From Bradyrhizobium sp. NDS-1 (lineage in GTDB: Bacteria > Pseudomonadota > Alphaproteobacteria > Rhizobiales > Xanthobacteraceae): 64,000 nt of DNA. Under the pieces are notes generated by a model. That model made no database searches, was not told the origin of the DNA, and was given only the letters and a program-made list of their open reading frames with translations. Of this stretch, positions 5,884 to 56,809 are shown piece after piece (the first letter of the stretch is position 1; each line of letters begins with the position of its first letter). A program made the translations under genes and the position numbers. The DNA lies in assembly GCF_032918005.1 (NCBI RefSeq), contig NZ_CP136628.1, positions 4,263,501-4,327,500 on the forward strand. Direction: 5' to 3'.

Positions 5884-5884
5884 G

Positions 5885-7167: not shown

Positions 7168-7351
7168 TAGCAAACTGTTGCGCCGACGTGCTCGAGCCTG
7201 CGCTGGCGACAAGGTCGGTTTGGGGCGGCGCTGCGGGGAGGATAAGCGCGCTCAGGACGAGCGGCGGGGGAGTGCGTGCGTATGCCAGATGAACCTTCGC
7301 CGCCGGCACCGGCACAAAGACTGAGATCGCTCCCAGTCTTCCGGACGTTGA

Positions 7352-8167: not shown

Positions 8168-8179
8168 GCAGCTTGCGGC

Positions 8180-9631: not shown

Positions 9632-9658
9632 GGGATTCTCCATGGGGTGCTGGGAGGA

Positions 9659-12925: not shown

Positions 12926-12989
12926 GAAAGGGTGTCCCTGGTGGACGGCGCCAGGCCTCGCAGCGCAAGGCCTGGCCGCCAAGCTTGTC

Positions 12990-14204: not shown

Positions 14205-14352
14205 GTCGATCCTCCCTCGTGTTTCACTCAAGCGATTGTTCGCTAGCGATGCGAATGGTCGTTCCTCTTGGCCTGATTTCTTCGGCGCAGCTTCGTTGAG
14301 CCGGCCGCGACCAGGACTTGACCTAGCAAGCACCGCGCGGTTTGTTCGCACA

Positions 14353-15324: not shown

Positions 15325-15827
15325 GCACCGCACGTGACGGAGCGATCGCCTCGGAGCCCAACCTCAATGCGGGATTTCGAATCCTGGCCGCCTGCAAAGC
15401 ACTGGCTGAATCCACGCCGTTGGCCCGCCGGACGCTGCCTTCGGAGGAGGTCGGACGCCGCCCTGAGCGGCCTGGGTTCGACTTGCAGGAACAACCATGC
15501 CCATATCCGTAATTCGCATAAGGTATATTATGGAATATATTTATATACAATCAGATCAGTCATTTAGGCGGAGTTCTTTCCATCACACCTTCGCCCAGCC
15601 CGATTTTGGGTCTGCGCTCCCACCGTCACTCAGCTCTTGACGGCTCCTGTGCATGGGGTTGTTTTTCAGATTTTGAATCGGATCGATCTCTTCGAAAGCC
15701 GATATTGCGGTGACCTTGTCCGGCTGCAATAAGCGAGGCCTCGCGAGATCGCTGATGACCTTCTGACCTCCCGTCCGTATAGGTTTGCATCTCAGAACAA
15801 CAACAAACCTTCCGAGGAAGCAGACCC
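15325..15827. other. 503-bp intergenic region, no gene seen
   Basis: No convincing coding frame. It contains an AT-rich patch unusual for this GC-rich DNA (about 15510-15560, with TATATTATGGAATATATT), which could hold the promoter of the following TRAP operon or the end of the araC transcript. The last 30 bases carry a CCGAGGAAG ribosome-site region for the gene at 15828. Confidence 0.5.
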
Positions 15828-16859: not shown

Positions 16860-16874
16860 CGCATCGGGGCCGTT

Positions 16875-44166: not shown

Positions 44167-44402
44167 GGTGGTTCTCTGGATTGACGGCTTCTCAGGGCCG
44201 GTTGCCAGTGGACAGCACTGGCGCCGGGAGTCTGAGAACATGGCCAGAGACCATGCGCGACGGCCTTCCCCTTTCGGGTCTTGTATAGCCGCCGCTCTCC
44301 CGGCATATCGGACTATTCCGAATTGGCAAGGATTGATTGACCGCAGGAAACACCTATTTTGAAAGGGTATTTCCGGGTTTTATCGGGTGATCTCGGAGGG
44401 AT

Positions 44403-44423
44403 TTTTGGCGGAAGGGGTGGGAT
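44403..44423. repeat. att site: 21-bp copy of tRNA-Ser(TGA) 3' end (left end of Block B)
   Basis: TTTT plus GGCGGAAGGGGTGGGAT is identical to 56717-56737, which spans the last bases of the tRNA-Ser gene (discriminator, acceptor arm, part of the T arm). The P4-type integrase begins 149 bp to the right. This is the expected signature of an element integrated at a tRNA 3' end. Confidence 0.85.
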
Positions 44424-44539
44424 CATTTGACTGGTCCTGCATGGTCTTCTGCGGTCCAGAAATCATGCTTTTTTGTAGGGTTTTTTGCAAGTTATGCCTC
44501 TAGACAGGTCTCCTTAAGTCCAGTACGGTCCGGCTCTGA

Positions 44540-44558
44540 TTTGTACGTAGGTTTGTAC
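44540..44558 (+). promoter_or_regulatory. TTGTAC direct-repeat operator upstream of integrase
   Basis: TTTGTACGTAGGTTTGTAC lies 14 bp before the integrase ATG. It contains TTGTAC twice, 12 bp apart, i.e. on one helix face. A 19-bp match with one difference occurs in inverse orientation at 49513-49531, before the terminase operon. It likely binds one element-encoded regulator, AlpA-like or RHH-like. Confidence 0.6.
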
Positions 44559-44571
44559 AAAAGGAGCTGAC

Positions 44572-45864
44572 ATGGCGCGCGGGACCAACAAGCTGTCCGT
44601 CAAGTTCGTCGAAAAGAACGACCTTACACCCGGTCTCTACGGCGATGGCAACGGCCTTTATCTCCAAGTCAGCCCGTCAACAACCGACGACAAGCGGCCC
44701 ACGAAGTCATGGGTATTTCGTTTCATGATGGCCGGCCGAGCTCGCAAGATGGGCCTGGGCGACGCCGATCAGATCAAGCTCGGTGATGCGCGTAAGAAGG
44801 CCAGCGCTGCCCGCCTCCTGGTGGTAGATGGTGTTGACCCGATCGAGGAACGGAGCGCCAGAAAGGCCGCTCTTGCCGTTGAGGAGGCCAAGGCGCTGAG
44901 CTTTAAGGAATGTGCCGAACGATACATCGAGGCTCATCAGTCGGGCTGGAAGAGCGCGAAGCACGGCAGCCAGTGGGCTGCGACGCTCGAGACGTACGCC
45001 TATCCCAAGATCGGCCGCCTCCCGGTCGCTGCGATCGATACTGCCCTGGTGTTGGAGGTGCTCGAGCAGAAGATCGACGGCGAGCGGTTCTGGAACAGCA
45101 AGACCGAAACCGCCTCCCGCGTGCGTGGCAGGATCGAGACCATCCTCTCGTGGGCGAAGGCCCGCGGCTACCGGCAAGGTGAGAATCCCGCGCAATGGCG
45201 AGGCCATCTGGATCAATTGCTGCCGGCGAAGTCTCAGGTTTCCCCGGTCGAGCACCACGCCGCCCTGCCCTATAGCCAGCTCCCGGCCTTTATGGCGAAG
45301 CTTCGGCAGCGGGACGGCGTGAGCGCCAAGGCGCTGGAGTTCACGATCCTAACCCTGGCCCGGACTGGGGACACCATCGGCGGCAAGTGGTCCGAGATCG
45401 ACGACGCCGATAAGCTCTGGATTGTCCCCAAGGATCGCGTGAAGGGCAAGAAGGGTGCGCGCAAGCGGGACCACGTTGTGCCGCTCACGAAGCCCGCGCT
45501 GGCCATCCTCAAGGATCTGCCGCGGGATGGCGAATACCTCTTCCCGGGCGACAAGCCGGGCAAGGGCCTGTCCAACATGGCTATGGCCGAACTGCTCAAA
45601 GAGATGGGCTATACCGGCGATGAGGCCACCGTTCACGGCTTCCGCTCCAGCTTCAAGGACTGGTGCAGCGAACAGACCTCCTACCCGAACGAAATGTCTG
45701 AAATGGCGCTGGCGCATACGGTCAGCGACAAGGTCGAGGCCGCCTATCGCCGCGGCGACATGCGAGAGAAGCGCCGCCGGCTCATGGCCGACTGGGCTGC
45801 GTTCTGTGCAGGCAAGGCTGTGGGTGGGGATAACGTTGTGAGCATTGCGGGGGCACGGGCATGA
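44572..45864 (+). CDS. int: P4-type tyrosine integrase (DUF4102 N-terminus)
   Basis: A 430-residue integrase. Residues 1-100 are the DUF4102-type arm domain (LTPGLYGDGNGLYLQVSPST, AGRARKMGLGDADQIKLGDA). The catalytic domain has LARTGDTIGGKWSEID (first Arg), VHGFRSSFKDWCSEQ (second Arg), ALAHTVSDKVEAAYRRGD (His and the nucleophile Tyr). The ATG follows AAAGGAG. All catalytic residues are present, so it is likely active. It integrates and excises Block B at the tRNA-Ser att site. Its stop overlaps the next gene (ATGA). Confidence 0.93.
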   Translation: MARGTNKLSVKFVEKNDLTPGLYGDGNGLYLQVSPSTTDDKRPTKSWVFRFMMAGRARKMGLGDADQIKLGDARKKASAARLLVVDGVDPIEERSARKAALAVEEAKALSFKECAERYIEAHQSGWKSAKHGSQWAATLETYAYPKIGRLPVAAIDTALVLEVLEQKIDGERFWNSKTETASRVRGRIETILSWAKARGYRQGENPAQWRGHLDQLLPAKSQVSPVEHHAALPYSQLPAFMAKLRQRDGVSAKALEFTILTLARTGDTIGGKWSEIDDADKLWIVPKDRVKGKKGARKRDHVVPLTKPALAILKDLPRDGEYLFPGDKPGKGLSNMAMAELLKEMGYTGDEATVHGFRSSFKDWCSEQTSYPNEMSEMALAHTVSDKVEAAYRRGDMREKRRRLMADWAAFCAGKAVGGDNVVSIAGARA

Positions 45865-46430
45865 AGCCGAATGAAGACCAAGCCCTTCTCACGGCGGTAG
45901 GCTACCTAGCGCGCCAGCCGCTCACCCCCGAGGCAAACAGGGCTGAAGCCGTTTCCCTCAACAGACGAGGCAACGAGGGGGTGTTGCGCATCTTCGATGA
46001 AATGCTGTCTCGTGAAGATGGCGCGGAACAGGTCACAGCGTGGATGGCAAATCTAGTCGCCGCTGCTGAAAGGGGCGAGATTGAAGCCTCCACTATGAAG
46101 GCCCTCACCGAAGAGATGTTCGCCCAAGACGAAGATCCTCCAAAGCCACTCTTGGACTACTGGAACAGGATACGTCACCAGCAACCTCCCAAATCGTCCG
46201 GACGGCCTGGCCCTAAGCCGGTGGATCGCGCCGCCCGCGATCGGGCGATTGTCAGAACAGTGGCCTGGATAGCGCGGGAATCCAATCTCGAAGAAACCAG
46301 AAACTATTCTGCTCGTGATGTGACAGGCGCCCCCCACTCTGCGTGCTCGATAGTGGCCATGGCACTGGGCATACTCGGAGTCAGCATGACCGAGGATCGA
46401 GTGAACCAGATATGGTCGGCGAGGCCGTAG
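45861..46430 (+). CDS. Hypothetical protein co-translated with integrase
   Basis: A 189-residue protein whose ATG overlaps the integrase stop by 4 bp. It is soluble and mostly helical (EGVLRIFDEMLSREDGAEQV, LTEEMFAQDEDPPKPLLDYW), with a Pro-rich linker (KSSGRPGPKPVDRAARDRAI) and a C-terminal part that may be a short helix-turn-helix (DVTGAPHSACSIVAMALGIL). Coupling to int suggests a role in excision or its control. No family recognised. Confidence 0.7.
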   Translation: MKPNEDQALLTAVGYLARQPLTPEANRAEAVSLNRRGNEGVLRIFDEMLSREDGAEQVTAWMANLVAAAERGEIEASTMKALTEEMFAQDEDPPKPLLDYWNRIRHQQPPKSSGRPGPKPVDRAARDRAIVRTVAWIARESNLEETRNYSARDVTGAPHSACSIVAMALGILGVSMTEDRVNQIWSARP

Positions 46431-46524
46431 TAATAATTCGCCCCGAACTACTCCTATGACCGTCAGATAGCTCCCGCCCTACACCGGCCTCTACAGGACC
46501 AATCAAGGTTCTATGGAGTGAATG

Positions 46525-46725
46525 ATGGTTAGGAAGGTTATGCGGTTGCCGGCGGTTCTCGACGCTACGGGTTGGGCGAAGCCGACGCTGTACGACAAGA
46601 TTGCCAAGGGTAAATTCCCCAAGGGCACGAAACTGGACCCGGATGCGCGCGCCGTCGTCTGGTTCGAGGACGAGGTCGAGGCCTTCCAGAAGGCGGCTGT
46701 GGCCGTTGCCGGGGTTGCCGCCTGA
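46525..46725 (+). CDS. AlpA/excisionase-like DNA-binding protein
   Basis: A 66-residue MerR-type winged-helix protein: VMRLPAVLDATGWAKPTLYD, then KIAKGKFPKGTKLDPDARAV and VWFEDEVEAFQKA. This is the AlpA pattern (choose, helix-turn-helix, then W-x-x-x-E/D-V). GGAG lies 6 nt before the second of two tandem ATGs, which I use. AlpA proteins switch on integrase or excision in satellites and P4-like islands. It overlaps the next gene by TGATG. Confidence 0.8.
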   Translation: MVRKVMRLPAVLDATGWAKPTLYDKIAKGKFPKGTKLDPDARAVVWFEDEVEAFQKAAVAVAGVAA

Positions 46726-46925
46726 TGCAGTTCCAAAAGCAAAGCCCCGCAACGCTGGCGGCGTGCGGGGCTCCGAATTCTGATCTGGCTGGCGCTTCGA
46801 TCAATTCGGAATCTACATCGCCGCTTCGAAGACTTCAAGCATCTCGTCTCGCGCGTCGCTACGCTGTCAACGCCGCGATGGCTGAGACGATCGCGCCTCT
46901 CGTATTCATGGAGGCGATGCGATGA
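46725..46925 (+). CDS. Small hypothetical protein, homologue of 58998-59186
   Basis: A 66-residue protein ending SPLRRLQASRLARRYAVNAA followed by MAETIAPLVFMEAMR. The protein at the same position in Block C ends SPPLAQLQAARLVRQCAMTR then SMAAVVAPMIYGEITA, a clear match in the C-terminal half. Both follow an AlpA-like gene. It is a basic helical protein, function unknown. Coupled to its neighbours at both ends (TGATG and ATGA). Confidence 0.65.
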   Translation: MQFQKQSPATLAACGAPNSDLAGASINSESTSPLRRLQASRLARRYAVNAAMAETIAPLVFMEAMR

Positions 46926-47134
46926 TGCTGAGCAGCAAATTCAGTGTGGGCCGATACGTCTGCGAGATGAGCTGGTCTCAATTCGGCTACATCAAATGCG
47001 AGTGGTCGCCGGAAGTCCCGACGGCTCTCGGCAAGCAAGAAATCCGCGAATATCGCGCCGGCCGAGATTCCTTCGTTCAAAACGTCGCAGAAAGCGTTGG
47101 CGGCAACGTGCTGGTCGTGGAGGCGCGCACATGA
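46922..47134 (+). CDS. Small hypothetical protein of the replication cassette
   Basis: A 70-residue protein (SVGRYVCEMSWSQFGYIKCE, then WSPEVPTALGKQEIREYRAG), overlapping its neighbours by ATGA at both ends. The pattern suggests a small beta-rich fold. I recognise no family; position immediately before PrimPol suggests a replication-linked role. Confidence 0.6.
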   Translation: MMLSSKFSVGRYVCEMSWSQFGYIKCEWSPEVPTALGKQEIREYRAGRDSFVQNVAESVGGNVLVVEART

Positions 47135-47988
47135 TGGGCGAATTTGCACTCAGCTACGCCGCCCGCGGCTGGCATGTCTTTCCTTGCAACGTTCTCAACA
47201 AGAGGCCCCTTGTCCGTCGCGACCTTGATGCTGAAGGCAAGGAGACCCCCGGTACTGGCGGCGTGAAGAAGGCCACTGCCGATGTTGATCAAATTCGGGA
47301 GTGGTGGCAACGGTGGCCCACTGCCATGATTGGCGTTGCCTGCGGTCCCGCCTCCGGCGTCTGGGCGATTGATCCCGACGCTCCGAAAAAGCCGGGCGAG
47401 CCCGACGGCAGAGCAAATTGGGCTGCGCTGTGCCTCAAGCACGGCTGTGCCGCTACTCATACCCATCTCACGCCTGGCGGCGGCAAGCACCTTCTGTTCA
47501 GGTGGAGGCCTGACAGGCCCATCACCAACAGCGAAGGCACCATTACCGGCACCGGGATCAACGTGCGAGGTGATGGCGGCTATGTCATCGCACCGCCGTC
47601 CAAGCGACACGACGGCAAGGCTTACGAGATTGCGGAGCCGCTCGACTTCTTCAGCTTCGCAGAGGCCCCGGACTGGCTGTACGCGATGCTTCGGCCCAAG
47701 GCACGCGAGCAGGCGCGGACGGACTATCGGCCGTCGTCGCGGTCGTCTGCGCATCCCATTGGGCGCATCCAGGGCATCCTAAACCGGGTTGCCTCGACTA
47801 CTGAGGGAGACCGCAACAAGGTTCTCTTCTGGGGCGCTATGCGCGTCGTCGAGATGGTCGTGGAGAAGGAAGTGCCGCCCTCCGAAGGAGATCGGGCCTT
47901 TGCCGCGCTCTGCGACGCGGGGCGGCACGCTGGCCTACCGGAGAACGAAATTATCAGGACGCTCCAGAGTGCGAGGGCTCGAGCATGA
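47131..47988 (+). CDS. Bifunctional DNA primase/polymerase (PrimPol)
   Basis: A 285-residue protein with an N-terminal Prim-Pol domain: FALSYAARGWHVFPCNVLNK, ADVDQIREWWQRWPTAMIGV, GVWAIDPDAP (catalytic Asp pair), HLTPGGGKHLLFRW (HxH-like/GGKH motif) and NVRGDGGYVIAPPSKR. The C-terminal 70 residues are a helical primase-associated domain (GDRNKVLFWGAMRVVEMVVE). It synthesises primers for replication of the element and acts with the RepA-like ATPase it overlaps by ATGA. Confidence 0.88.
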   Translation: MMGEFALSYAARGWHVFPCNVLNKRPLVRRDLDAEGKETPGTGGVKKATADVDQIREWWQRWPTAMIGVACGPASGVWAIDPDAPKKPGEPDGRANWAALCLKHGCAATHTHLTPGGGKHLLFRWRPDRPITNSEGTITGTGINVRGDGGYVIAPPSKRHDGKAYEIAEPLDFFSFAEAPDWLYAMLRPKAREQARTDYRPSSRSSAHPIGRIQGILNRVASTTEGDRNKVLFWGAMRVVEMVVEKEVPPSEGDRAFAALCDAGRHAGLPENEIIRTLQSARARA

Positions 47989-49070
47989 CCATAAGATGGG
48001 ACAAGTTCGAGCCCGCGGCGGAGGAGCCGCTGGAGCCGCTCGACTTCATCAATATGAGCTTCTGGGACGTTAAGCCTGTCCCGCCCCGGCAATGGGCTGT
48101 GCGCGACCGTGTGCCGGCGCATCAAGTCACGCTCTTCAGCGGTGAAGGCGGTAGCGGTAAGTCTATCGTCGAGCTCCAGCTTGCCTGTGCTCACGTCCTG
48201 GGGCGGGACTGGTTCGGCTCCCTACCCGAGCCCGGTCCGGTCATCTACCAAGGCTGCGAGGACACGCGAGACGAGTTGCATCGGCGCGTGGCTAGCATCT
48301 GCGAGCACTATGACGTGAAGTTCTCCGACTTGATCAGCGGCGGCCTAAACATGTTCTCCTGTGTCGAGGGCGACGGCCTGCTTGGCGTCCCTGACCGGGG
48401 TGGGCAGATCGAACCTACGCGCATGTACAAGCGCCTGCTGGAGGCCGCGAACGACATCAAGCCGAAGCACATTGGCATCGATACCTCGGCCGACGTGTTC
48501 GGCGGCAACGAGATCGACCGCAGTCAGGTTCGGCAGTTCGTCAGCCTTCTCCGCAAGCTCGCTATCGCGGCAAACGGCTCGGTGGTGCTGCTGAGCCATC
48601 CCAGCCTGACCGGCATCACTTCCGGCACCGGGCTCTCAGGGTCGACCGCCTGGCACAACTCGGTGCGCTCGCGCATCTACCTGACTTCAGACGGCGACAT
48701 GCGCACCATCGAGTTCAAGAAGAACCAGTATGGCCCGCTCGGTGAGAAGGTCGTGGTGCGATACGAGGATGGCGTGTTTGTGCCGGATGGCGGCAAGACT
48801 GATGTTGAGCTCACCTTGATACACAGGATCGCAGACGATTCCTTTCTTGAGCTGCTGGACATCACCGCCAAGCAACAGCGGTACTTTGGCTCTAAGCCGG
48901 GCACCAACTATGCGCCCAAGCAACTGGCGGGGCTGCCTCAAGCGAAGGGGCACAACGCAAGGATGCTCGGGCAAGCGATGGAAAGGCTGCTGGCTGCGGA
49001 CAGGATCAAGCTCGTGCTCGACCCCTCTAAGAAGCCGTCGAAGGCTACTCTGGTGCTTGTGCGTGCGTAA
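47985..49070 (+). CDS. RepA-like RecA-fold ATPase/helicase
   Basis: A 361-residue RecA-fold ATPase of the RSF1010 RepA/AAA_25 type. Walker A is FSGEGGSGKSIVELQLA, Walker B is HIGIDTSADVFGGNEIDRSQ, and the sensor region is VVLLSHPSLTGITSGTGLSG. It is followed by the NSVRSRIYLT block shared with the Block C homologue. It is the likely replicative helicase. The C-terminal 100 residues look like a winged helix for origin binding. Overlaps primpol by ATGA. Confidence 0.88.
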   Translation: MTIRWDKFEPAAEEPLEPLDFINMSFWDVKPVPPRQWAVRDRVPAHQVTLFSGEGGSGKSIVELQLACAHVLGRDWFGSLPEPGPVIYQGCEDTRDELHRRVASICEHYDVKFSDLISGGLNMFSCVEGDGLLGVPDRGGQIEPTRMYKRLLEAANDIKPKHIGIDTSADVFGGNEIDRSQVRQFVSLLRKLAIAANGSVVLLSHPSLTGITSGTGLSGSTAWHNSVRSRIYLTSDGDMRTIEFKKNQYGPLGEKVVVRYEDGVFVPDGGKTDVELTLIHRIADDSFLELLDITAKQQRYFGSKPGTNYAPKQLAGLPQAKGHNARMLGQAMERLLAADRIKLVLDPSKKPSKATLVLVRA

Positions 49071-49602
49071 AGCCGAGGGGGCCGACCTCCCGTCCGACCA
49101 TCGGTCAACCTCCGTCCGACCTACGTTCGAGCGGGGGTGCTCCTCTCTCCCCCATACCCCCTAGGCTGGTCGCCCCTAGGGCGGCCTCCCTTGAGGTCGG
49201 CCCCGGGGCTGGAAGTCGGGTGCTGCCAATCGATGCCAAGCAGTGCGGCGGTGTCCGTGCACAAAGCTAAACGTCGGTGAGCTTGAGGCGTGAAAGATTG
49301 CCAAGAGAGGGCCACAAAGCCGCCGGCTGCGAAATCGGGCAAAAACGGAGACGGCGAATCTCGTTTCAGGTTGAAACGATCCCTGCGTCAAGTTGACTCA
49401 GTGAGCCGTGCCTGGGTCGAGCGTCGATGAAGTCTGAGGCGGAAATAGTATCCGCCCTGCCATCACGATTTCGCGATAAAAACAGACTGTTAGTCTCTCT
49501 TCGTCTCGTAACGTACAATCCTACGTACAAAGTAAGTTGGCGATCTCGGCGAAGCAGATTACATTGATGTCAACCGTTGCAACGTGCAGCGAAGGGAACG
49601 AG
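49071..49602. other. 532-bp regulatory gap: short repeats, hairpin and operator
   Basis: No gene is convincing. Just after the RepA stop there are two copies of ACCTCC(C)GTCCGACC (49085-49099 and 49108-49121), then an inverted repeat CGCCC-CTA-GGGCG at 49170-49182. Towards the right end the TTGTAC operator lies at 49513-49531. It may contain the replication origin and the promoter of the terminase operon. Confidence 0.5.
49513..49531 (-). promoter_or_regulatory. TTGTAC direct-repeat operator upstream of terminase operon
   Basis: Read on the minus strand, TTTGTACGTAGGATTGTAC, matching 18 of 19 positions of the site before the integrase (44540-44558). On the plus strand the half-sites appear as GTACAA, 12 bp apart. 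It lies 71 bp before the ribosome-bound ATG at 49603 and so probably controls the packaging operon. Confidence 0.6.
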
Positions 49603-49779
49603 ATGAGCATTGAAGAGAACGAACGCGAGGAGCAGGCGGGCAAGCCGATCAGCTTCCGTGCGGCCCCTGCCCTTGCGGAGGCCATTGAGCGCGCTGCCGG
49701 CAAAGAGCTGCTGAGCACCGCCTCGTTCTGCCGGCGCGCTGTGTGGCGCGCTGTGCAGGCGGAGGCGGCCACTCAGTGA
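49603..49779 (+). CDS. Small RHH-like protein
   Basis: A 58-residue protein from ATG 49603 (AAGGG 6 nt upstream): KPISFRAAPALAEAIERAAG, then KELLSTASFCRRAVWRAVQA. A short beta strand followed by two helices fits a ribbon-helix-helix DNA-binding protein, which could be the regulator binding the TTGTAC sites. Its stop overlaps the terminase gene start (GTGA). Confidence 0.6.
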   Translation: MSIEENEREEQAGKPISFRAAPALAEAIERAAGKELLSTASFCRRAVWRAVQAEAATQ

Positions 49780-50324
49780 GCGACGAGCTAACCCCCAAGC
49801 GTCGGGCCTTCGCCCGCGAATACATCATCGACAGCAACGGCACGCAGGCTGCCATCCGTGCGGGCTACAGCGAACGGTCGGCCACCTCTCAGGCTTCCCA
49901 GCTGCTCGACCTACCCAGCGTGCAGGCTGAGATAGCCCTACTCCAGAAGGACGCGGCACAGGCCCAGGACGTGAGCCTTAGCCGGCTGTACACGCTGCTC
50001 AACGAGGCGTGCCAGATCGCACGGCGCAAAGAGAGCGCTACGGGCATGGTTGCTGCCGTGACCGCCATCGCCAAGCTCGCTGGCCTTTGGGTCGAGAAGC
50101 ACGAGGACCTGGCCGCCCGCGACAAGCTGGCAGCGGAGGCACAGAAGACCGAGCTTAAGACGGCAGCAAGGCTCCTGGGAGAGGCAGCGGAGAGCGTTGG
50201 CCTGCCGAGGGCCGCAACGCCTGCCCAGATCGTCGGGGCGCTCGCAGAGCGTCCTGTGGCGACGCCGGAGGCCTATCGGCTGCTAAGGCAGCACGCGACT
50301 GAGGAGCCGGCAAATGCAACGTGA
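49776..50324 (+). CDS. terS: Terminase small subunit (Terminase_2-like)
   Basis: A 182-residue protein starting at GTG 49776. The N-terminal domain LTPKRRAFAREYIIDSNGTQ, AAIRAGYSERSATSQASQLL and PSVQAEIALLQ is the classic small-terminase DNA-binding domain (phage TerS). TerS chooses the DNA to be packaged. A TerS without a large terminase subunit is typical of satellites that redirect a helper phage's packaging motor. The start overlaps the RHH-like gene. Confidence 0.85.
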   Translation: MSDELTPKRRAFAREYIIDSNGTQAAIRAGYSERSATSQASQLLDLPSVQAEIALLQKDAAQAQDVSLSRLYTLLNEACQIARRKESATGMVAAVTAIAKLAGLWVEKHEDLAARDKLAAEAQKTELKTAARLLGEAAESVGLPRAATPAQIVGALAERPVATPEAYRLLRQHATEEPANAT

Positions 50325-50613
50325 GGCCGGTCCGCTCTCTGAGGAAGCCATGGCCGCTCGCAGGATCGCCTTCACGCTTGCGAAGGCTGAAGACGCGCTC
50401 GGCATTCGATATGCGATCAGTCTCCCCCTCAAGGCTCGCACGGACATGATCCTGGCCGGCGCCATGGAAAACCCCAGCGCCATTGATGAGGCAACCTACA
50501 GCCTCGCCTACATGCTTTCGCAGCCTAGCCAAGCGAACGTCGGCCACGAAGCCGCAAAGCAGCAGCCCGGCGGCCCGCTGCACAAACCCAAGCAGGAGCC
50601 GACGAAGCAATGA
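50314..50613 (+). CDS. Hypothetical protein of the packaging operon
   Basis: A 99-residue helical protein (EEAMAARRIAFTLAKAEDAL, SLPLKARTDMILAGAMENPS) overlapping the terminase gene by 11 bp and the next gene by 4 bp. The C-terminal 30 residues are Gln/Pro-rich. No family recognised; tight coupling implies a packaging or satellite-specific role. Confidence 0.6.
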   Translation: MQREAGPLSEEAMAARRIAFTLAKAEDALGIRYAISLPLKARTDMILAGAMENPSAIDEATYSLAYMLSQPSQANVGHEAAKQQPGGPLHKPKQEPTKQ

Positions 50614-51251
50614 ACCTGCATCAGATCCTCAAGACCGTTCCGAAGGAATGGCACTCCGTGGCCACGCACTACGTCAAGGGGCTTCAGCGTGCCGGCGTGC
50701 CAGCGGACAAGCTCGATTCGCTCGTGCAGTGGGGTGTGGCGTACCAGGGCCCAGGCGATGAGGAGGCGTTGCTTTCTTCCTTTCGTGCGCAAGCCTCGCG
50801 CCTGGGCCTGGAAAGCCACGTGACATCCCTGGCGGCCGATTGGGGTCTTGAAGCTCGCGAGGAGATCAACTCCGGCAAGTGGCAGCCTGAGCCGGCGCCG
50901 CCATCCGACAACGCAAGTCTGCTCGCGGACATCCGCGCGTATCGCCAGCAGTGGCCTGACGAATACGGGCAGGACAAGGCGATGCAGGAAGCCGAGCTCG
51001 CGCTGATCGCTGCCGATCTCGGTGAGAAGCCGCCGAAGGTATCGGGACAACTTCCGACCACGCCTGGCGCTCAGCGCATGATGGAGATTCGGCAGATCAT
51101 GCGAGACGAACCGGATCGATACAACGCTGACAAGGCGCTCCAAGCCGAGCAGCTTGGTCTGATCGAAGCTGACCTTGCGAGCCGGTCGGCTCAGCAACCC
51201 ACCTCTCAACCCGCGCCAGCGGCTTCTGGCGATACAGGAGAACCCACTTGA
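50610..51251 (+). CDS. Hypothetical protein with internal helical repeats
   Basis: A 213-residue soluble protein. Two similar segments (LLADIRAYRQQWPDEYGQDK then AMQEAELALIAADLGE; and MMEIRQIMRDEPDRYNADKA then LQAEQLGLIEADL) look like an internal duplication. This kind of IRxxMxDxPxxYxxDKAxQ repeat is seen in phage head/scaffold-like proteins, but I cannot assign one. Coupled to both neighbours by 4-bp overlaps. Confidence 0.6.
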   Translation: MNLHQILKTVPKEWHSVATHYVKGLQRAGVPADKLDSLVQWGVAYQGPGDEEALLSSFRAQASRLGLESHVTSLAADWGLEAREEINSGKWQPEPAPPSDNASLLADIRAYRQQWPDEYGQDKAMQEAELALIAADLGEKPPKVSGQLPTTPGAQRMMEIRQIMRDEPDRYNADKALQAEQLGLIEADLASRSAQQPTSQPAPAASGDTGEPT

Positions 51252-51430
51252 GCACAGCATTTGACGCGGCCAGCGAATACGTCGCGGCTCTGGAGGCGGA
51301 GGCGAAGGCCTCGCCGAAAAACTTCTACGGCAACGCCAACCATCGCGCCGACGGCAAGGAGCGTGTGGCGTCTGCGCTGCGCGTTTCGCGCAACCTGACG
51401 CAGCGTCTTCAAGAACTGGTTCGGGGCTGA
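51248..51430 (+). CDS. Small hypothetical protein
   Basis: A 60-residue protein (FDAASEYVAALEAEAKASPK, then a basic helix VASALRVSRNLTQRLQEL). It starts by TTG within an overlap (4 bp) with the previous gene and ends 2 bp before the next. Role unknown; the position suggests a virion or packaging-associated small protein. Confidence 0.5.
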   Translation: MSTAFDAASEYVAALEAEAKASPKNFYGNANHRADGKERVASALRVSRNLTQRLQELVRG

Positions 51431-51432
51431 GC

Positions 51433-51984
51433 ATGACCGCAGCTGAAGTGAAGTTTCGCGACGAGCAGAACGCGGCGGCAAAGGGCAGATTCCACGCCGA
51501 GATGGTGGCCTTATCGGCCGGCGGCCCTCCGTCGCCTGTCAAGAAGCCGCTGGCTGATCCCAAGCGCTTCATTGGTGCGTCATACGCTCGATGCGAATGG
51601 TCCTATACGATGCGTTCCGAGGAGACGATCGCGGACGTAAAGAGCGATGGCTTCTTCAAGGGCGTCGCCAACAAGTTCACGATGGGCGACCTGGTCGAGG
51701 TTCGGTCGGCAAACCTCACGTTCTGGAGCCTCCTCATGGCCGTGGCCTCGGATCATGTCGCCGGCCGCGTCGAGCTCAGGACCCTGATCGAGACCGAAGT
51801 GGAAGCCGCGGAGACGAAGGACTTCGAGGCCGACGGCTACACGATCGAGAACACGGGGGATGTGCTGCGGCGCCTGGCTGTGGTTCGCAAGGCCGACGGC
51901 AAGCTGATGAAGGACGGCTTCAAGACCAAGCCGGACGCGGCGCACTACATCAGCACCGAGCTGCACGCGCGGGCGGCTTCCTGA
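51433..51984 (+). CDS. Hypothetical phage-type protein
   Basis: A 183-residue soluble protein (FIGASYARCEWSYTMRSEET, GDLVEVRSANLTFWSLLMAV, FEADGYTIENTGDVLRRLAV). The centre reads as an alpha/beta fold. Its stop overlaps the tail-fibre gene start (TGATG). It may be a structural or adaptor protein, but no family is recognised. Confidence 0.6.
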   Translation: MTAAEVKFRDEQNAAAKGRFHAEMVALSAGGPPSPVKKPLADPKRFIGASYARCEWSYTMRSEETIADVKSDGFFKGVANKFTMGDLVEVRSANLTFWSLLMAVASDHVAGRVELRTLIETEVEAAETKDFEADGYTIENTGDVLRRLAVVRKADGKLMKDGFKTKPDAAHYISTELHARAAS

Positions 51985-53072
51985 TGGCGATCATCGACCG
52001 ACGATACTCCGTGGCCGAAGGGACCGCGGTCAAGGCGCCATGCCGCGTTGCGACCACGGCCAACGTCACGCTATCCGGCTTGCAGACGATCGACGGCGTG
52101 ACGCTGGTCGAGCATGACCGCGTTCTGGTGAGGGCTCAATCGACCGGGTCTGAAAACGGTATCTATGAGGCTTCGTCGGGCAACTGGCTGCGCACCAAGG
52201 ATTTCGATGGCGCCTACGACATCGTTTCCGGGTCTCGGGTCTATGTCGTTTCCGGCGCCGTCAATGCGCAATACGAGTACGCGGTCTCGACGGCGGGCGA
52301 GATCGTCATCGACAGCACGGCGATCACTTTCGTAGCGCTGGGCGCGCAGTCCGCCACTGCCGCTGCCGCTGAAGCCGTCGACGCAGCCGCTACCGCGGTT
52401 GCTGCCGCAGCCACGGCAACCAGCGCCACTTTCACCACGGGCGATATCAAGCTAACCCTGAAAGCGACGCCAGACATCGGCTGGCGCATGTTCGATGACG
52501 GCACGATCGGCGATGGGAGCTCGGGCGCGACCTATGCCAACGTCGCCGCTCAGGCGCTGTTCACGTTGATGTACGACAATTTCGTGGATGCCAACGCGGC
52601 GATCACGACCAGCGCAGGTGCTGGGACGACCCGCGCGGCGCAGGTGAACGCCGCAACAGCATGGGCGAACCATTGCCGGATCGCGCTGCCGAAGGTGCTT
52701 GGGCGTGCGCTGGCTATCGCAGGCGCTGGTTCTGGGCTGACGTCACGAGATCTGGGTGTGACGGCGGGCGCGGAGACGCATCAGCTGCAAACGACGGAAA
52801 TCCCATCGCACCAGCATAGCGTCTATCTCAAAGATCCGGGCCACACTCACACTTATTCGGTTGCAAACAACACCGAGCAAAAGCCGATGTCGGGTGGCGT
52901 CCCGGCTTACGTCAGCACGACGCCGTCGACCACTTCATCCAATGCCACCGGAATCACGATCGGCTCCGTCAGCGGCACTGCCAACGACAATAAGACCGCA
53001 ACGGCCGGCGGCGGCGGCTCGCACAACAACATGCAGCCGTCGTCGTTCTTGAACGCGATGGTCAAGTTGTGA
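51984..53072 (+). CDS. Phage tail fibre / tail collar-like protein
   Basis: A 362-residue protein. The N-terminal part (VTLSGLQTIDGVTLVEHDRV, LVRAQSTGSENGIYEASSGN) is a repeat found in phage appendage proteins; the Ala-rich middle forms a fibre-like linker. The C-terminal half resembles a tail-collar domain, with TEIPSHQHSVYLKDPGHTHT and a His-rich GGGGSHNNMQPSSFLNAMVK ending typical of phage T4 collar-type tips. Such tips bind host receptors. In a capsid-less element, it may alter helper-phage host range. Confidence 0.8.
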   Translation: MAIIDRRYSVAEGTAVKAPCRVATTANVTLSGLQTIDGVTLVEHDRVLVRAQSTGSENGIYEASSGNWLRTKDFDGAYDIVSGSRVYVVSGAVNAQYEYAVSTAGEIVIDSTAITFVALGAQSATAAAAEAVDAAATAVAAAATATSATFTTGDIKLTLKATPDIGWRMFDDGTIGDGSSGATYANVAAQALFTLMYDNFVDANAAITTSAGAGTTRAAQVNAATAWANHCRIALPKVLGRALAIAGAGSGLTSRDLGVTAGAETHQLQTTEIPSHQHSVYLKDPGHTHTYSVANNTEQKPMSGGVPAYVSTTPSTTSSNATGITIGSVSGTANDNKTATAGGGGSHNNMQPSSFLNAMVKL

Positions 53073-53248
53073 GTTCGGCGTCAGCTGCGGAGCCTGCGGC
53101 CGGCCTCGATCGGGGCTGCACGCTCCTGGACGACTACTCGATCCGCCTCCAGCTCGAGCACCTGTGGAATGCCGACAGGTGCCCGGCGCTGAGCCGTGAG
53201 CAGCGGGTGGGGAGGATCAGGGAGTTGAGTCCGGAGCTCGCACGATGA
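53069..53248 (+). CDS. Small hypothetical protein
   Basis: A 59-residue protein starting at GTG 53069, overlapping the tail-fibre stop (GTGA), and ending in an ATGA overlap with the next gene. The sequence (LDDYSIRLQLEHLWNADRCP, then ALSREQRVGRIRELSPELAR) is soluble and helical. Perfect coupling on both sides argues that it is real. Family unknown. Confidence 0.55.
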   Translation: MSSASAAEPAAGLDRGCTLLDDYSIRLQLEHLWNADRCPALSREQRVGRIRELSPELAR

Positions 53249-53712
53249 CGGCAGCCTGGGAGCCGTTGGAGCGCATCGAGACCCCGCCTCCTTCCGAGGA
53301 GGATATCGCTCTGCTGATGACGCGTGGCTCGCGTGAGGACGCCCTCAAATTGCTCGCGGTGGAATCCACGGCCGAGTACTGGCAAAACGCGGTCTTCCTG
53401 GTCCTGAAAATCCAGCTTGGTTCTGGCTGGTTTAAGCTCCGCATCGAGAGGCGCGACGGTGAGCCGATCAGCCGGGAATGGCGGCTATTTCAGAACATCA
53501 AAAACCAGCTGCTCGGGCCTGAGTGCGAGGCGTTGGAGTTGTACCCGGCGGAGTCGCGCAAGATCGACAGCGCCAACATGTATCACCTCTATGGCGTTGC
53601 AGATCCTGAAGTAAAATTCAGCTTCGGGATGACGCCGGTGGATGAGCTTGGCGGAAAGACTTACGACGTGGCGCGCGGCCGATCGAAGCCGGCGAGCTAT
53701 TCTCATGACTAA
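53245..53712 (+). CDS. DUF7694-like hypothetical protein
   Basis: A 155-residue protein. After a 70-residue N-terminal segment comes WFKLRIERRDGEPISREWRL followed by FQNIKNQLLGPECEALELYP and AESRKIDSANMYHLYGVAD. This R-R-D-x-x-P-I-x-x-W-R-x-x-Q-x-I-K-N-x-L-x-G-P-E-C-E-x-x-E-L-Y-P pattern is the DUF7694 family, common in Rhizobiales mobile DNA. Function unknown. Confidence 0.7.
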   Translation: MTAAWEPLERIETPPPSEEDIALLMTRGSREDALKLLAVESTAEYWQNAVFLVLKIQLGSGWFKLRIERRDGEPISREWRLFQNIKNQLLGPECEALELYPAESRKIDSANMYHLYGVADPEVKFSFGMTPVDELGGKTYDVARGRSKPASYSHD

Positions 53713-53764
53713 CGTCGAAGGCCGCCGCCCTTTCATCGGTTGTAGGGTCGTGTAGTATCGCCTC

Positions 53765-54634
53765 ATGATCGCACCCGCCCCAGCCACCGTTGAAGATACA
53801 GCAGACCGGATGATAATCCAGCTTGATCCTGGCGGTCCTATTGATCTTGAGGGCCTCGGCGCAAGCTTCGCAGCCCTTGCGCGTCTTTACGCGCGGCATC
53901 ACGGGGAGACCAAAGATGCTGACACGACTCCGCGCCTCTTCATCTCCAAGCTGGAAAATGGAAGCGTCATCGCGGAAATCGTTCCGTATGTCGTGATGCT
54001 CGGCCAAGCCGTGCCATTCATGCAGCAAGCCGTAGTGATTGCGAACTTCACTGATCGCGTAGCCAAAACTATTCGAGCTTTTTCAGGCGCAGAAATCCCA
54101 GCAAAAGCGGATCTTCCGTCGACTGACGACGCACGAGATATCAAAGAATTCATCAAGCCGCTTGTCGGCCGCCGCGGATCTGACTTGAAAATCTCGCACG
54201 CCCGATTTGAGCGCCGCGATGGAGAAAAATCGACAATCCTCGAATATCGCTTTGATGAAACAGAACTCAACCGCGCGGCGCTCACCATAGATGCGGAGCT
54301 AGTCAACCCGGCGCTGCCTCCCCCGCAGCCCGACGAGCCCTCGTCTACGAAGTCAATTCGCGAGGCCATGCTTTTCTTCCAGCAGGCTAGCAGATCTGCC
54401 GGCAAGAGCGCCGGCCGCACGAGCGACAAAGCGATAATTCCGTCGGTCACGGAGAAGGCTCTGCCAGTGTACTTTGTGGAAGACGCCGGCCTCAAAGAGC
54501 AGATGGTGCAGGGCCAGACAAATCCGCTCAACGACACCACTTACATCATTGATGCCGACGTTCAGTTGGTTGATGGCGTACCCAAGGGGTACGTCGTTAC
54601 TCGTGTCCACCGCGTCATCGAGGGCGATGAGTGA
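53765..54634 (+). CDS. Hypothetical cargo protein
   Basis: A 289-residue soluble protein that I do not recognise. Two parts can be seen: an N-terminal domain (IQLDPGGPIDLEGLGASFAA, then LARLYARHHGE and GSVIAEIVPYVVMLGQAVPF) and a C-terminal domain (FERRDGEKSTILEYRFDETE, then PVYFVEDAGLKEQMVQGQTN) separated by a Pro-rich linker. It lies after the structural-type genes, apart from them by 52 bp, in the position where satellites carry phage-defence or other accessory genes. Confidence 0.6.
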   Translation: MIAPAPATVEDTADRMIIQLDPGGPIDLEGLGASFAALARLYARHHGETKDADTTPRLFISKLENGSVIAEIVPYVVMLGQAVPFMQQAVVIANFTDRVAKTIRAFSGAEIPAKADLPSTDDARDIKEFIKPLVGRRGSDLKISHARFERRDGEKSTILEYRFDETELNRAALTIDAELVNPALPPPQPDEPSSTKSIREAMLFFQQASRSAGKSAGRTSDKAIIPSVTEKALPVYFVEDAGLKEQMVQGQTNPLNDTTYIIDADVQLVDGVPKGYVVTRVHRVIEGDE

Positions 54635-54764
54635 GTGCCTGGCGTCGGTCCCACTCTCTCAGAGTCCCGTTAGCGCGGCACCTACTAAGAAGTGAGCCAG
54701 CGATAGGTAGCCCAACCAGCCAAGAGACCTGCGGCAGGCAAAAGCTCGATGGGTCTTGGGCGAG

Positions 54765-54968
54765 CTAGCAAGAGAGCATACTACCGTTCAGGCTGCAGCC
54801 CTCCACAATGGACTGTACAGCTCGCCGGAAATCGCGATCTCGCTTCAGCTCCATATAATCCATCCCGGCCACATCGGCGCGAGCTTTACTCGCAAAATTG
54901 ACAAGCGCAGCCCCTACATTCACGGCTGTCAGTGCAACCAACAAGACCACGACAACTGCTGATTTCAT
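54765..54968 (-). CDS. Small exported or membrane-anchored protein
   Basis: A 67-residue protein with GAGGGGG about 6 nt before its ATG. The N-terminal 25 residues form a signal or anchor helix (MKSAVVVVLLVALTAVNVGA), followed by a charged helix (MELKRDRDFRRAVQSIVEGC) and a final Cys. It is one of the few minus-strand genes of Block B. Function unknown. Confidence 0.55.
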   Translation of the reverse strand: MKSAVVVVLLVALTAVNVGAALVNFASKARADVAGMDYMELKRDRDFRRAVQSIVEGCSLNGSMLSC

Positions 54969-55056
54969 GAATTCCCCCTCTGGTTGCGTCGGACACTACA
55001 CGCGCCGAAGCGCCCCCGAAAGGGGTGGATTTTTAACCAAATCAGGAGCAGGCTGT

Positions 55057-55320
55057 CCGTGGGCTTGATAACCCGGACGAAGCTATAGACCGCATTCCCT
55101 GGCAGGAATTGCCCTGACGCCTGGCAGCGTCGGGCGGCGGTTCGAATTCTGGTGGCGCATTGGCGTGCGCCCCAACCTGGCCATTATGGCCGGGAGGGCC
55201 GCGCCATGTCCAGAGGGGAAACCCTTAAAAGCGCCGCCGCCTGTCGCTTCGCAGGTTATCAACTCCCGGCTGCCGGTCTGACACCGGCTACGGCCTTGAT
55301 AAGCCGAAGGAAGCACAGCC
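55057..55320 (+). ncRNA. Candidate structured leader RNA upstream of 55321
   Basis: This 260-bp stretch is rich in hairpins: GGG-CTTGATAA-CCC (55061-55074), GCCGGT-CTGAC-ACCGGC (55271-55287) and CGGC-CTTGATAA-GCCG (about 55291-55306). The first and third share the same 8-nt loop, and a longer 20-bp block (55064-55083 and 55295-55314) matches at about 17 positions. It ends just before the ATG at 55321. Conserved-loop hairpins ahead of a gene suggest a 5' leader or a small RNA. I recognise no known riboswitch. Confidence 0.35.
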
Positions 55321-56211
55321 ATGACCAGCCTACACACCAGCGCCCCAGGCGCCGGTCAATTTTCGTCACCTCCATTGATTCTGACAAATTCCGCCAGCGC
55401 GGATCAGGGAGTCAAAAACGAACGCGAACCTTCCAGCGTCAGAGAGATTCCTTTGCCCGGGGCTGCAATCAACAGGAGGACACTGATGAATATGCTCGTT
55501 GGAGCCACCGCACTTACCGCAACTGCAACCCCCGTCCACGCTGCACCAGACACTACGCTGATCACGGCGCTGGAGAAGCTTCGCGAGCTCAAGCCCGTCT
55601 ATGACGCCGCGCAGGCCCGTTGGGATGAGACCTTTCCCGTGTACCATAAGAGCCGCCCCGCCTGGCCCGAAGCGTTGCGCTGGTGTCCTATGGACGGTCT
55701 GAACATCCGCCCATGGAAAACCAAAGATGGCACCATCTTGGACCCGACTGACTTGGCGAAAATGCGGGGCGTGCCGCAGCTCGCTTGGGAATACATCGGA
55801 CCCGATGTTGCCGGCCCGAGCAGCATGGAGTGGGATATCGAGCTTGCTCAGCCGAAAGAGCAGTTCGTACATCTGTTCAAGAGTGTACCAGATGAATGGA
55901 AGCAACGCCGGCTGGATGAGGCCCTGAAGGCTGCAGACGAGCACAAGGCCATCTGCGATGAACTGAAGATAAAAACCGGCTTCCGCGCCGCGGAGGACCA
56001 CTTGAACGACGTCTATTTCAATCAAGTGGTGCCGACACAGAAAATCATCATCGATGCCGATCCCGCGACACCCGGGGCTATCCAGGCGAAGGCGGCGCTA
56101 ATGGTGGAATGGTTCTTCGAGGATGTCCCAGAGGGGGGCGCGGAAATGACCGACTACGACCGCATGGTGGTCGACGTGGTGTGCGGCGTTGCTACTGCTT
56201 CCTCGGTCTGA
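55321..56211 (+). CDS. Hypothetical protein with internal hydrophobic segment
   Basis: A 296-residue protein. Residues 52-75 (RRTLMNMLVGATALTATATP, then VHAA) look like a Tat-like signal, which would place the true start at about residue 56 (ATG 55486 with AGGAGG upstream). The following domain is helical with LITALEKLRELKPVYDAAQA, RWCPMDGLNIRPW and KSVPDEWKQRRLDEALKAAD. I recognise the type from rhizobial prophages but no function. The N-terminal part may be an untranslated leader. Confidence 0.55.
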   Translation: MTSLHTSAPGAGQFSSPPLILTNSASADQGVKNEREPSSVREIPLPGAAINRRTLMNMLVGATALTATATPVHAAPDTTLITALEKLRELKPVYDAAQARWDETFPVYHKSRPAWPEALRWCPMDGLNIRPWKTKDGTILDPTDLAKMRGVPQLAWEYIGPDVAGPSSMEWDIELAQPKEQFVHLFKSVPDEWKQRRLDEALKAADEHKAICDELKIKTGFRAAEDHLNDVYFNQVVPTQKIIIDADPATPGAIQAKAALMVEWFFEDVPEGGAEMTDYDRMVVDVVCGVATASSV

Positions 56212-56220
56212 AGGTGCACA

Positions 56221-56246
56221 GGCCCGCCGGTTCACGCTGGCGGGCC
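56221..56246. terminator. Hairpin between converging genes
   Basis: GGCCCGCCGG, loop TTCACG, then CTGGCGGGCC: a 10-bp stem with one wobble pair between the gene ending at 56211 and the minus-strand gene ending at 56232 (whose stop lies inside it). Similar in sequence to the terminator at 42943. No T run. Confidence 0.5.
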
Positions 56247-56510
56247 AATGCCTGCGGCGATTGCCTGGAGAAGCACAACAATACCCGTTGCAATGGCCGC
56301 GTAAGCGCTCCAACGAGACTGGTTCGCGGTTGTGCCTACGAGATCGATCTTGCGACCATTCCTGGTGAAGATCATTCGATCCGAACGTGTCTCTTTCTGG
56401 TCATCGGCGTACTCGTTCATCCATTTTGAGGCTGAGATGAACCACAGGATTGCCGATGCTCCGGCCACGATGACCGATGCCCAAGTGAGGCAAGTGAGAA
56501 ATGCTTTCAT
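56232..56510 (-). CDS. Small two-helix membrane protein
   Basis: A 92-residue protein with two transmembrane helices: FLTCLTWASVIVAGASAILW at the N-terminus and AAIATGIVVLLQAIAAGI at the C-terminus, joined by a charged loop (MNEYADDQKETRSDRMIFTR). Its start overlaps the upstream small gene by ATGA. Membrane role unknown; phage superinfection-type proteins have similar size and topology. Confidence 0.65.
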   Translation of the reverse strand: MKAFLTCLTWASVIVAGASAILWFISASKWMNEYADDQKETRSDRMIFTRNGRKIDLVGTTANQSRWSAYAAIATGIVVLLQAIAAGIGPPA

Positions 56511-56656
56511 GGGTTAGGTCTCGCCTTGGCGAGTTGCCTTTTCCTGTAGTTGTCGGCGATCTCCAGAAGCGCGGCGCGCTCGACGGGGTCTTCAGTCTGG
56601 AGCGCCAACGTGCGACATATTGACTCGATGTCGAGCCGGCGAGGATTGCAACCCAT
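56507..56656 (-). CDS. Small hypothetical protein, paralogue of 41852-42043
   Basis: A 49-residue protein from ATG 56656: RRLDIESICRTLALQTEDPV, then ERAALLEIADNYRKRQL. It matches the Block A protein (ICRDLAAATTDPVERAALLE) over about 30 residues. The in-frame sequence upstream of the ATG is only translated tRNA. Coupled to the membrane protein downstream. Function unknown; found at the end of Block B beside the tRNA. Confidence 0.6.
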   Translation of the reverse strand: MGCNPRRLDIESICRTLALQTEDPVERAALLEIADNYRKRQLAKARPNP

Positions 56657-56716
56657 TGTACGTTTGATTGTGCGCTGAAACCAGGATATGCACTTAAGTA
56701 TTTGATTTTTCTGATC

Positions 56717-56737
56717 TTTTGGCGGAAGGGGTGGGAT
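56717..56737. repeat. att site: right copy, within tRNA-Ser 3' end
   Basis: The same 21 bp as at 44403-44423. Here it is the end of the intact tRNA-Ser gene, so this copy is the one that keeps the tRNA functional. Confidence 0.85.
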
Positions 56738-56809
56738 TCGAACCCACGGTACCCTTGCGGGCACGCCGGTTTTCAAGACCGGTGCCTTAAACCACTCGGC
56801 CACCCTTCC
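56720..56809 (-). tRNA. tRNA-Ser (anticodon TGA), CCA encoded
   Basis: On the minus strand the gene starts GGAAGGGTGGCCGAGTGG and has a long variable arm (GTGCCCGCAAGGGTACC region) typical of class II tRNAs. The anticodon loop is CTTGAAAAC, giving TGA for serine. The T arm GTGGG-TTCGAAT-CCCAC and acceptor CCCTTCC followed by GCCA pair correctly with the 5' end. It is intact and functional in form. It is flanked on both sides by integrase-bearing elements. Confidence 0.96.

Follow-up and report, generated by a model that had tools for sequence, protein, structure and literature searches.

Links between a phage satellite and its helper are usually made by experiment. Some phage-inducible chromosomal islands (PICIs) encode a small terminase, TerS (PMC6092414), and the C-terminal part of TerS binds the large terminase, TerL, in lambda and P22 (PMC6739421, PMC9611059). 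CpmB of SaPI1 has an established C-terminal capsid-binding motif in common with the 80alpha scaffold (PMC5644958), and the same relation to a scaffold motif was proposed for Rcm of SaPIpT1028 (PMC12409344). We analyzed a 12.3-kb element situated at 44403-56737 of a 64-kb stretch (the window) of one Bradyrhizobium chromosome (sp. NDS-1, 7.65 Mb). Its small imitations of the packing, shell-building and host-binding proteins of one virus group suggest, as far as sequence can tell, which unseen virus the element exploits and in what way. An integrated phage satellite, packaged by an uncultured podovirus-like helper group, is the best explanation of the whole and a probable one. From a fibre and three protein matches that are short or partial, a particular uncultured group of helpers can be predicted, along with mechanisms for three steps that are open to testing.

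Matches to phage packaging and assembly proteins

The tail fibre of the element is 64% identical, over its full length, to the fibre of IMGVR_UViG_3300047472_000054 (G460), a 45-kb metagenomic phage. The genes of this phage include a head-tail adaptor, a capsid (phrog_3437), a tail protein and internal virion proteins, a content that reads as podovirus-like. The first ~118 residues of the fibre form an adaptor domain found in many phages. The fibre matched 95 phage records from many hosts, none of which had one place covering 80%. Because the adaptor or collar part is so widespread, the adaptor alone was rejected as a helper identifier, and evidence from the capsid, the scaffold, the TerS tail and g11 was added. 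Among the best 80 of 155 IMG/VR stretches with adaptor relatives, the closest adaptors (65-77%) belonged to IMGVR_UViG_3300047472_000054, 3300023266_000001, 3300043603_000001 and 3300009545_000213. A scan with the capsid protein of the first of these gave 114 relatives, of which the best 80 were kept as capsid-group loci. All four contigs are among these 80 loci, with capsids 86-100% identical. In 50,697 deposited phage records, the capsid group had only two distant relatives (26-29%). From these matches, the helper group is likely to be this podovirus-like capsid group.

A profile of the g9 C-terminus matched 24 open reading frames (ORFs) in as many capsid-group loci (E<=0.01, best 6.9e-15). 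These phage ORFs (317-364 aa) were matched at their C-terminal end and lie 5' of the capsid gene, at a distance of 0.4 kb or less. When 14,297 ORFs from the other viral loci were searched, the same profile found only the G460 scaffold (5.7e-11), the next E-value being 0.87. The second copy of the motif, in the middle of g9, matched 17 of these 24 ORFs, again at their C-terminal end. Reversed-sequence controls gave best E-values of 2 for the C-terminal profile and 3.3 for the middle one. The phage ORF belongs to phrog_3742, nameless in PHROG, and is labelled scaffold because it is placed between the head-tail adaptor and the capsid. The N-terminal profile of g9 also gave weak matches (1.5e-4 to 5.1e-4) to three ORFs in the scaffold position, so a complete scaffold gene may have been the source of g9. 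Its structural model is all-helical (pLDDT 80, pTM 0.44). It is thus likely that g9 mimics the C-terminal scaffold motif at the level of residues.

The g11 family, phrog_26742, was found in the same capsid group; among the 14 cases listed, all start no more than 0.6 kb after the capsid gene. The phage order is TerS, TerL, head-tail adaptor, scaffold, capsid, g11, tail, internal proteins and fibre. The satellite order of TerS, g8, g9, g11 and fibre parallels it, with TerL, head-tail adaptor, capsid, tail and internal proteins missing.

The start of g8 carries AARRIAFTLAKA, which matches the C-terminal tail of helper-group TerS. A 30-residue g8 profile retrieved the TerS of 3300009545_000213 (7.5e-7) and of 3300047472_000054 (2e-6), both fibre-sharing phages. 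The motif ARRIA[FY] is present near the g8 N-terminus in all three core satellites described below. Of 19,728 viral ORFs (some of them overlapping fragments), six contain it, in each case among the last 40 aa, and all six lie upstream of TerL. A looser tail motif was found within the last 45 residues of 21 of the 19,728 ORFs. In the six element stretches searched, a looser pattern found the motif in no ORF besides g8. The motif-bearing ORFs form at least two families: those of L295, L343 and L304 fall in one phmmer set, and that of L088 aligns with the satellite TerS (47% over 70 aa). The L368 ORF and the 92-aa, perhaps cut, L308 ORF belong to neither. The ARRIAF C-tail, common to small terminases of at least two families that are encoded upstream of similar TerL genes, is a candidate general TerL-docking signal that is open to bench testing. 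Given the TerL binding of the TerS C-terminus in lambda and P22, g8 is most naturally read as carrying a TerL-docking peptide, and it is plausibly a terminase adaptor or decoy.

Related elements and absent functions

Two more complete Bradyrhizobium elements, with other integrases and other attachment (att) sites, carry the module Arc-TerS-g8-g9-g10-fibre and make up, with the window element, the three core elements. A scan of genome contigs gave two loci, one of them in Bradyrhizobium sp. BR 10289 (L061). This element has the order PrimPol-RepA-Arc-TerS-g8-g9-g10-fibre in 12.6 kb between 48-bp tRNA-Lys repeats, with a phrog_26742 gene ahead of the fibre as well (8.7e-5). At its right end a TIR-domain protein (L061:17904-18902) is probable defence cargo; defence genes are often carried by satellites. 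The other element (G382, L198; 12.3 kb, 42-bp repeats) shares Arc-TerS-g8-g9-g10-g11-g13-DUF7694 at 61-85% identity (g11 78%, DUF7694 68%). It has a different integrase, directed at the 5' half of the tRNA-Ser that the window element uses, and its replication gene is a fused primase-helicase. Integration and replication modules are therefore swapped while the packaging/assembly module is retained. The separate PrimPol and RepA-type ATPase, which the earlier note took as a mark of a possibly undescribed rhizobial group, are thus real in the window element but not universal.

The fibre is shared over its whole length with P0139 (76%) and P0140 (69%). The fibres of BR 10289 (63%) and G382 (45%) share the adaptor only and have other, longer C-terminal parts. 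Between the window element and G382, the tip differs while the flanking g11 and DUF7694 genes stay conserved. Functioning fibres usually show this pattern, in which receptor-binding tips are exchanged and the adaptor is preserved. The fibre is possibly a means of satellite-controlled adsorption, if it enters particles.

The module is under purifying selection between the window element and G382. By a simple counting method that gives approximate values, the ratio of non-synonymous to synonymous substitution rates (dN/dS) was 0.21 for Arc, 0.17 for TerS, 0.27 for g8, 0.24 for g9, 0.29 for g10, 0.17 for g11, 0.30 for the fibre adaptor, 0.38 for g13 (37 codons) and 0.27 for DUF7694. Therefore, the element is hardly a decaying prophage.

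TerS matches at E<=0.001 were found in 14 of 265 genus genomes, and below 1e-40 only in the three core genomes. A protein-database search with TerS gave 445 matches, of which 120 were listed; among those listed, a separate group of 28 TerS relatives (E between 6e-88 and 1.8e-26) is followed by a drop to 4e-20, 8e-15 and other TerS. The g9 search gave 18 matches including itself. Its relatives seemingly lie beside members of the TerS clade (for example in 12,569- and 14,943-base records) and beside close fibres (177,264- and 22,897-base records), the records being paired by equal size only.

Two further elements combine other parts. L176 (G424; 17.3 kb, 768-18142, 66-bp tRNA-Lys repeats) has PrimPol and RepA in common with the window element, together with a phrog_1482 TerS related to that of the helper (40% to L295), a collar fibre and a 402-aa protein without PHROG family. 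It also holds a whole tRNA-Ser(TGA) gene inside. L177 (G425) resembles the window element in integrase (64%) and PrimPol (72%); it carries fibres and a TerL-like gene (L177:12439-13998; phrog_2, 1.1e-33), with no capsid among nine proteins scanned. Elements of this genus are therefore built from modules, and among them the window element is a well-defined member. The 402-aa L176 and 393-aa L177 proteins were considered as scaffold-like and dropped, having no PHROG family and a profile that found nothing below E=0.75 in viral ORFs.

The family scan with Pfam and PHROG covered 18 element genes, that is, all except the two small ORFs at 46725-47134. Among these 18, no TerL, portal, capsid or lysis gene was found; this includes 50314-51984, where the earlier note had asked for a profile check for TerL, portal and capsid. 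The scan also found no relaxase or conjugation gene, the nearest being a sub-threshold NikA-like match (0.038) in the Arc gene. A search of the host genome (7.65 Mb) with phrog_2 detected no intact TerL, only a single 112-aa fragment with two stops. A near-DNA search of the phage collection gave no match, and g10 and g13 had no phage counterpart. A capsid-forming PICI has its own capsid and packaging genes, and here capsid, portal and TerL were absent among the 18 genes; nor does the element hold the TerL, portal, capsid, tail and lysis set of a complete prophage. Altogether, the absence of TerL, portal and capsid, the recurring module, the purifying selection and the packaging/assembly matches to one phage group support the helper-dependent satellite that the earlier note had proposed. 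The element is very likely a satellite.

Proposed mechanism and rival explanations

Matches, gene order, recurrence, purifying selection and the absence of TerL, portal and capsid constitute the evidence, from which we infer every biochemical step. Judging from their families, Int and AlpA would excise the element from the tRNA-Ser gene, and PrimPol and the RepA-like ATPase would replicate it. Packaging would be carried out by an infecting phage related to IMGVR_UViG_3300047472_000054 and IMGVR_UViG_3300009545_000213. The satellite's own TerS would mark satellite DNA. By offering a helper-type TerS C-tail, g8 would couple this TerS to the helper TerL and/or titrate TerL away from helper DNA. 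With its two copies of the scaffold C-terminal motif, g9 would redirect head assembly, like CpmB of SaPI1. Finally, g11 and the fibre would be helper-type virion or assembly proteins, the fibre being built onto helper tails via the conserved adaptor. Helper contigs of 45.5, 49.2 and 53.2 kb, compared with satellites of 12.3-12.6 kb, would be compatible with some four copies in each full head, or with a head of reduced size.

More tentatively, these elements may represent a satellite family with a kit of docking peptides and parts derived from one helper group: a detached TerS tail (g8) through which a foreign TerS would drive the helper TerL, a doubled scaffold tail (g9) that would rebuild the helper head, and a helper-compatible fibre of its own, the tips of which differ. 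The choice of cells bound by the particles would then lie with the satellite and not with the helper. Should the fibre be incorporated into particles, such satellites could direct their own dissemination among rhizobia in soil. Neither a detached TerS tail on a separate protein nor a receptor-binding fibre in an integrating satellite without its own capsid was found in the open-licence literature searched, an absence that carries little weight.

Several observations weigh against packaging by this helper group. The full-length g8 profile reached E-values of 0.003 and 0.005 only, and the g8 motif was first spotted by eye and tested afterwards. Of the 28 loci that hold a TerL relative and extend upstream of it, only 11 have an upstream ORF that carries the loose tail, four of these tails being identical. 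The satellite TerS is not of the helper TerS family (no G460 match at E<=1), and a TerS related to it occurs in only 1 of 12 fibre-sharing phage records; because the families differ, the pairing of satellite TerS with helper TerL is a presumed step. The g9 motif and g11 were detected in only 24 and 19, respectively, of the 80 capsid-group loci, many of which are short contigs, and a fold search of BFVD and PDB with the g9 model gave no match at E<=0.001. The packaging genes of the related elements L176 and L177 are different ones, in L177 including the TerL-like gene. Moreover, the helper contigs are metagenomic and may be incomplete, and the helper capsid was found in 0 of 265 Bradyrhizobium genomes, in a search run without a positive control. 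The link between helper and host is therefore one of sequence only. Given also the few deposited relatives and the lack of an intact host TerL, the helper is predicted to be an uncultured phage from outside.

The parallel between TerS, scaffold-like g9, g11 and fibre and a phage late operon could also be left by a podovirus-like prophage in decay that has lost its TerL, portal, capsid and tail genes. The close fibre identity would suit such a remnant, as would the weak N-terminal match of g9 to three scaffold ORFs, which allows whole-gene descent. However, three elements that differ in integrase and att site carry this gene set, nine gene comparisons give dN/dS of about 0.17-0.38, and the ORFs overlap tightly. 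Both organism-labelled g9 relatives, of 17 others, are from Bradyrhizobium. Moreover, g8 and g9 look rebuilt and not plainly degraded, the tail having moved to the N-terminus of a separate protein and the coat-side motif having been doubled. We consider a decaying prophage improbable. An integrative plasmid, or a conjugative or mobilisable island with a few phage genes, is more improbable still. AAA_25 RepA-like ATPases are common, with repA relatives in 43 of 198 family genomes, and the 18 family loci around such relatives (L043-L060) had no TerS, g8-g11 or fibre match at 1e-4. Against this stand the lack of a relaxase or conjugation gene among the 18 genes scanned and the right half of the element, which is a packaging/assembly module. 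Both explanations were rejected on the grounds given.

A satellite could also act by interference, with g8 a mere TerL decoy comparable to Ppi of SaPIs or Rpp of E. coli, g9 a mere blocker of helper head assembly, and satellite DNA packed into ordinary heads of full size. Mimic peptides can act as competitors, and a satellite to helper length of about 1 to 3.7-4.3 would allow several copies per full head. Yet TerS adjoins g8 with overlapping frames, which suggests joint action, and a doubled motif would resemble an assembling scaffold more than a blocker. We regard pure interference as possible but rather unlikely, and packaging by the podovirus-like helper group as the preferred explanation.

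Locus map, surroundings and known systems

The layout described in the earlier note held on closer analysis: the flanking 21-bp tRNA-Ser repeats are identical, integrase, AlpA-like gene, PrimPol, RepA-like ATPase and TerS follow in that order by their Pfam matches, and the added tail-fibre gene was recovered by its PHROG family. The 4-bp overlaps were found at six junctions (int/g2, PrimPol/RepA, g8/g9, g9/g10, fibre/g13 and g13/DUF7694); the TerS and g8 frames overlap by 11 bp, and g11 and the fibre by 7 bp. The best PrimPol start is the one tabulated. No further copy of the repeat occurs in the window at up to four mismatches on either strand. When the left flank was searched against 21 genomes, eight matched, including the host itself (G000); as the remaining seven matches were short, no clean empty site could be read.

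Features of the element and its integration target (window positions).
Feature	Position	Strand	Matches and remarks
attL	44403..44423		21-bp direct repeat, tRNA-Ser 3' end, TTTTGGCGGAAGGGGTGGGAT
tyrosine integrase (int)	44572..45864	+	PF22022 1.4e-30, PF13356, PF00589; 64% identity to G425 element integrase
g2	45861..46430	+	no family in Pfam/PHROG; 4-nt overlap with int; position as iolg of PICMIs
AlpA-like regulator/excisionase	46522..46725	+	PF05930 1.2e-8
small ORF, 66 aa	46725..46925	+	outside family scan; similar ORFs by eye in L176, L177
small ORF, 70 aa	46922..47134	+	outside family scan; similar ORFs by eye in L176, L177
PrimPol primase/polymerase	47131..47988	+	PF09250 1.7e-38; 72-79% in L061, L176, L177
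RepA-like AAA_25 ATPase/helicase	47985..49070	+	PF13481 5.5e-30; 84% in BR 10289
Arc-like small regulator	49537..49779	+	phrog_3431, weak (0.0081); 85% in L198
TerS, small terminase (Terminase_2)	49743..50324	+	PF03592 2.8e-19; helper-type C-tail motif absent
g8, candidate TerL-docking adaptor or decoy	50314..50613	+	N-terminal AARRIAFTLAKA as C-tail of two helper-group TerS
g9, candidate capsid redirector	50610..51251	+	all-helical model; scaffolding-protein C-terminal motif twice
g10	51248..51430	+	kept in three core elements
g11	51433..51984	+	phrog_26742; homologue of gene right after capsid gene in putative helper group
tail fibre	51978..53072	+	phrog_11518 6.1e-26; ~118-aa conserved adaptor, collar-type C-terminal tip
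g13	53069..53248	+	kept in L198
DUF7694 protein	53245..53712	+	phrog_7839
g15, accessory	53765..54634	+	phrog_9226; no PADLOC match
g16r, small ORF	54765..54968	-	phrog_22883, weak (0.031)
g17, accessory	55321..56211	+	N-terminal part common to L176, L177, L198
g18r, small ORF	56232..56510	-	phrog_14357, weak (0.0052)
attR	56717..56737		same 21-bp repeat TTTTGGCGGAAGGGGTGGGAT; overlaps 3' end of intact tRNA-Ser
tRNA-Ser(TGA)	56720..56809	-	intact, integration target

Five genes of the element were compared with PADLOC and gave no match. Just outside attL, an sRNA-Xcc1 Rfam match lies on the minus strand at 44215-44304 (56.3 bits, gathering 53). Before and at the start of g17, the DNA at 55000-55501 is 84% identical in G382, and parts of it are 75-79% identical in L176 and L177, in contrast to the otherwise differing remainder of those element ends. 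A 26-27-bp stretch at 56220-56246 is identical in L198, L176 and L177 toward their right ends; by eye it could form a G+C-rich hairpin, and it may be a terminator.

The same tRNA-Ser serves two elements. A second, satellite-like element of 13.7 kb (L041) abuts its 5' half, from 56768 through the window end at 64000 and on to 70555, with 42-bp repeats at 56768 and, past the window, at 70514. It encodes an integrase, an Arc-like protein, a RepA-like ATPase, a candidate for a Nu1-like small terminase (phrog_57, 3.9e-5) and a protein of 881 aa, of which about 115 aa resemble a tape measure; the proteins scanned, all except two small ones, included no further tail protein. A 522-aa protein (L041:2671-4239; phrog_14159, 1e-120) is a PADLOC candidate for PDC-M28C (1.1e-15). 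By tblastn in the phage collection, there was no match for g11, the 393-aa L177 protein or a 436-aa protein of the second element.

Like the Gram-negative PICIs (PMC6092414), the element has an integrase, AlpA as master regulator and a replication module in conserved order, a size of about 12-15 kb (12.3 kb; relatives 12.3 and 12.6 kb) and no capsid or TerL among the 18 genes scanned. PICIs are also recognised by an att site that prophages never use and by induction and mobilisation through a helper phage; the tRNA-Ser used here is shared with the second, satellite-like element, which takes its other half. Unlike them, it carries a helper-type fibre, phrog_26742, a PrimPol with separate ATPase and the TerS-tail protein g8, and its predicted helper is podovirus-like, whereas the PICI EcCICFT073 uses lambda and phi80 (PMC6092414). 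Because PICIs are defined by a lack of structural genes, and the fibre and phrog_26742 are present here though capsid, portal, TerL and lysis genes are not, the element was not filed as a PICI. It would work like a PICI though it is not strictly one: the PICI-like label of the earlier note stands, and strict membership does not, a virion-type fibre gene having been kept.

In the PICMIs of Vibrionaceae, int is usually overlapped by 4 nt by a gene (iolg) and followed by alpA, often a small gene, and a primase, in that order (PMC10803314). Here int, alpA and primase are likewise co-located, and g2 overlaps int by 4 nt. The same source describes PICMIs as being without capsid-remodelling genes and uses DUF3987/DUF5906 primases (PF13148, PF19263) in its search model. 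Unlike these, the window element has a PrimPol with PF09250 as its only Pfam primase match, TerS, g8, g11, a fibre, and g9, which resembles a scaffold mimic. A tail-fibre gene is also present in MiniFlayer, a Streptomyces satellite, which, unlike the window element, has its own capsid, no lysogenic module and fibres that hold on to the helper virion (PMC10690885).

At the level of single proteins, g9 resembles CpmB and Rcm as a satellite protein with a scaffold C-terminal motif (PMC5644958, PMC12409344); it differs in having two motif copies and a podovirus-like capsid as predicted target. As a candidate, g8 would join Rpp of E. coli PICIs and SaPI TerS with Ppi as a small satellite protein that redirects or blocks the helper terminase (PMC6739421). 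Rpp, which itself binds TerS, imitates the TerS region that contacts DNA (PMC6739421); g8 carries the TerS C-tail instead.

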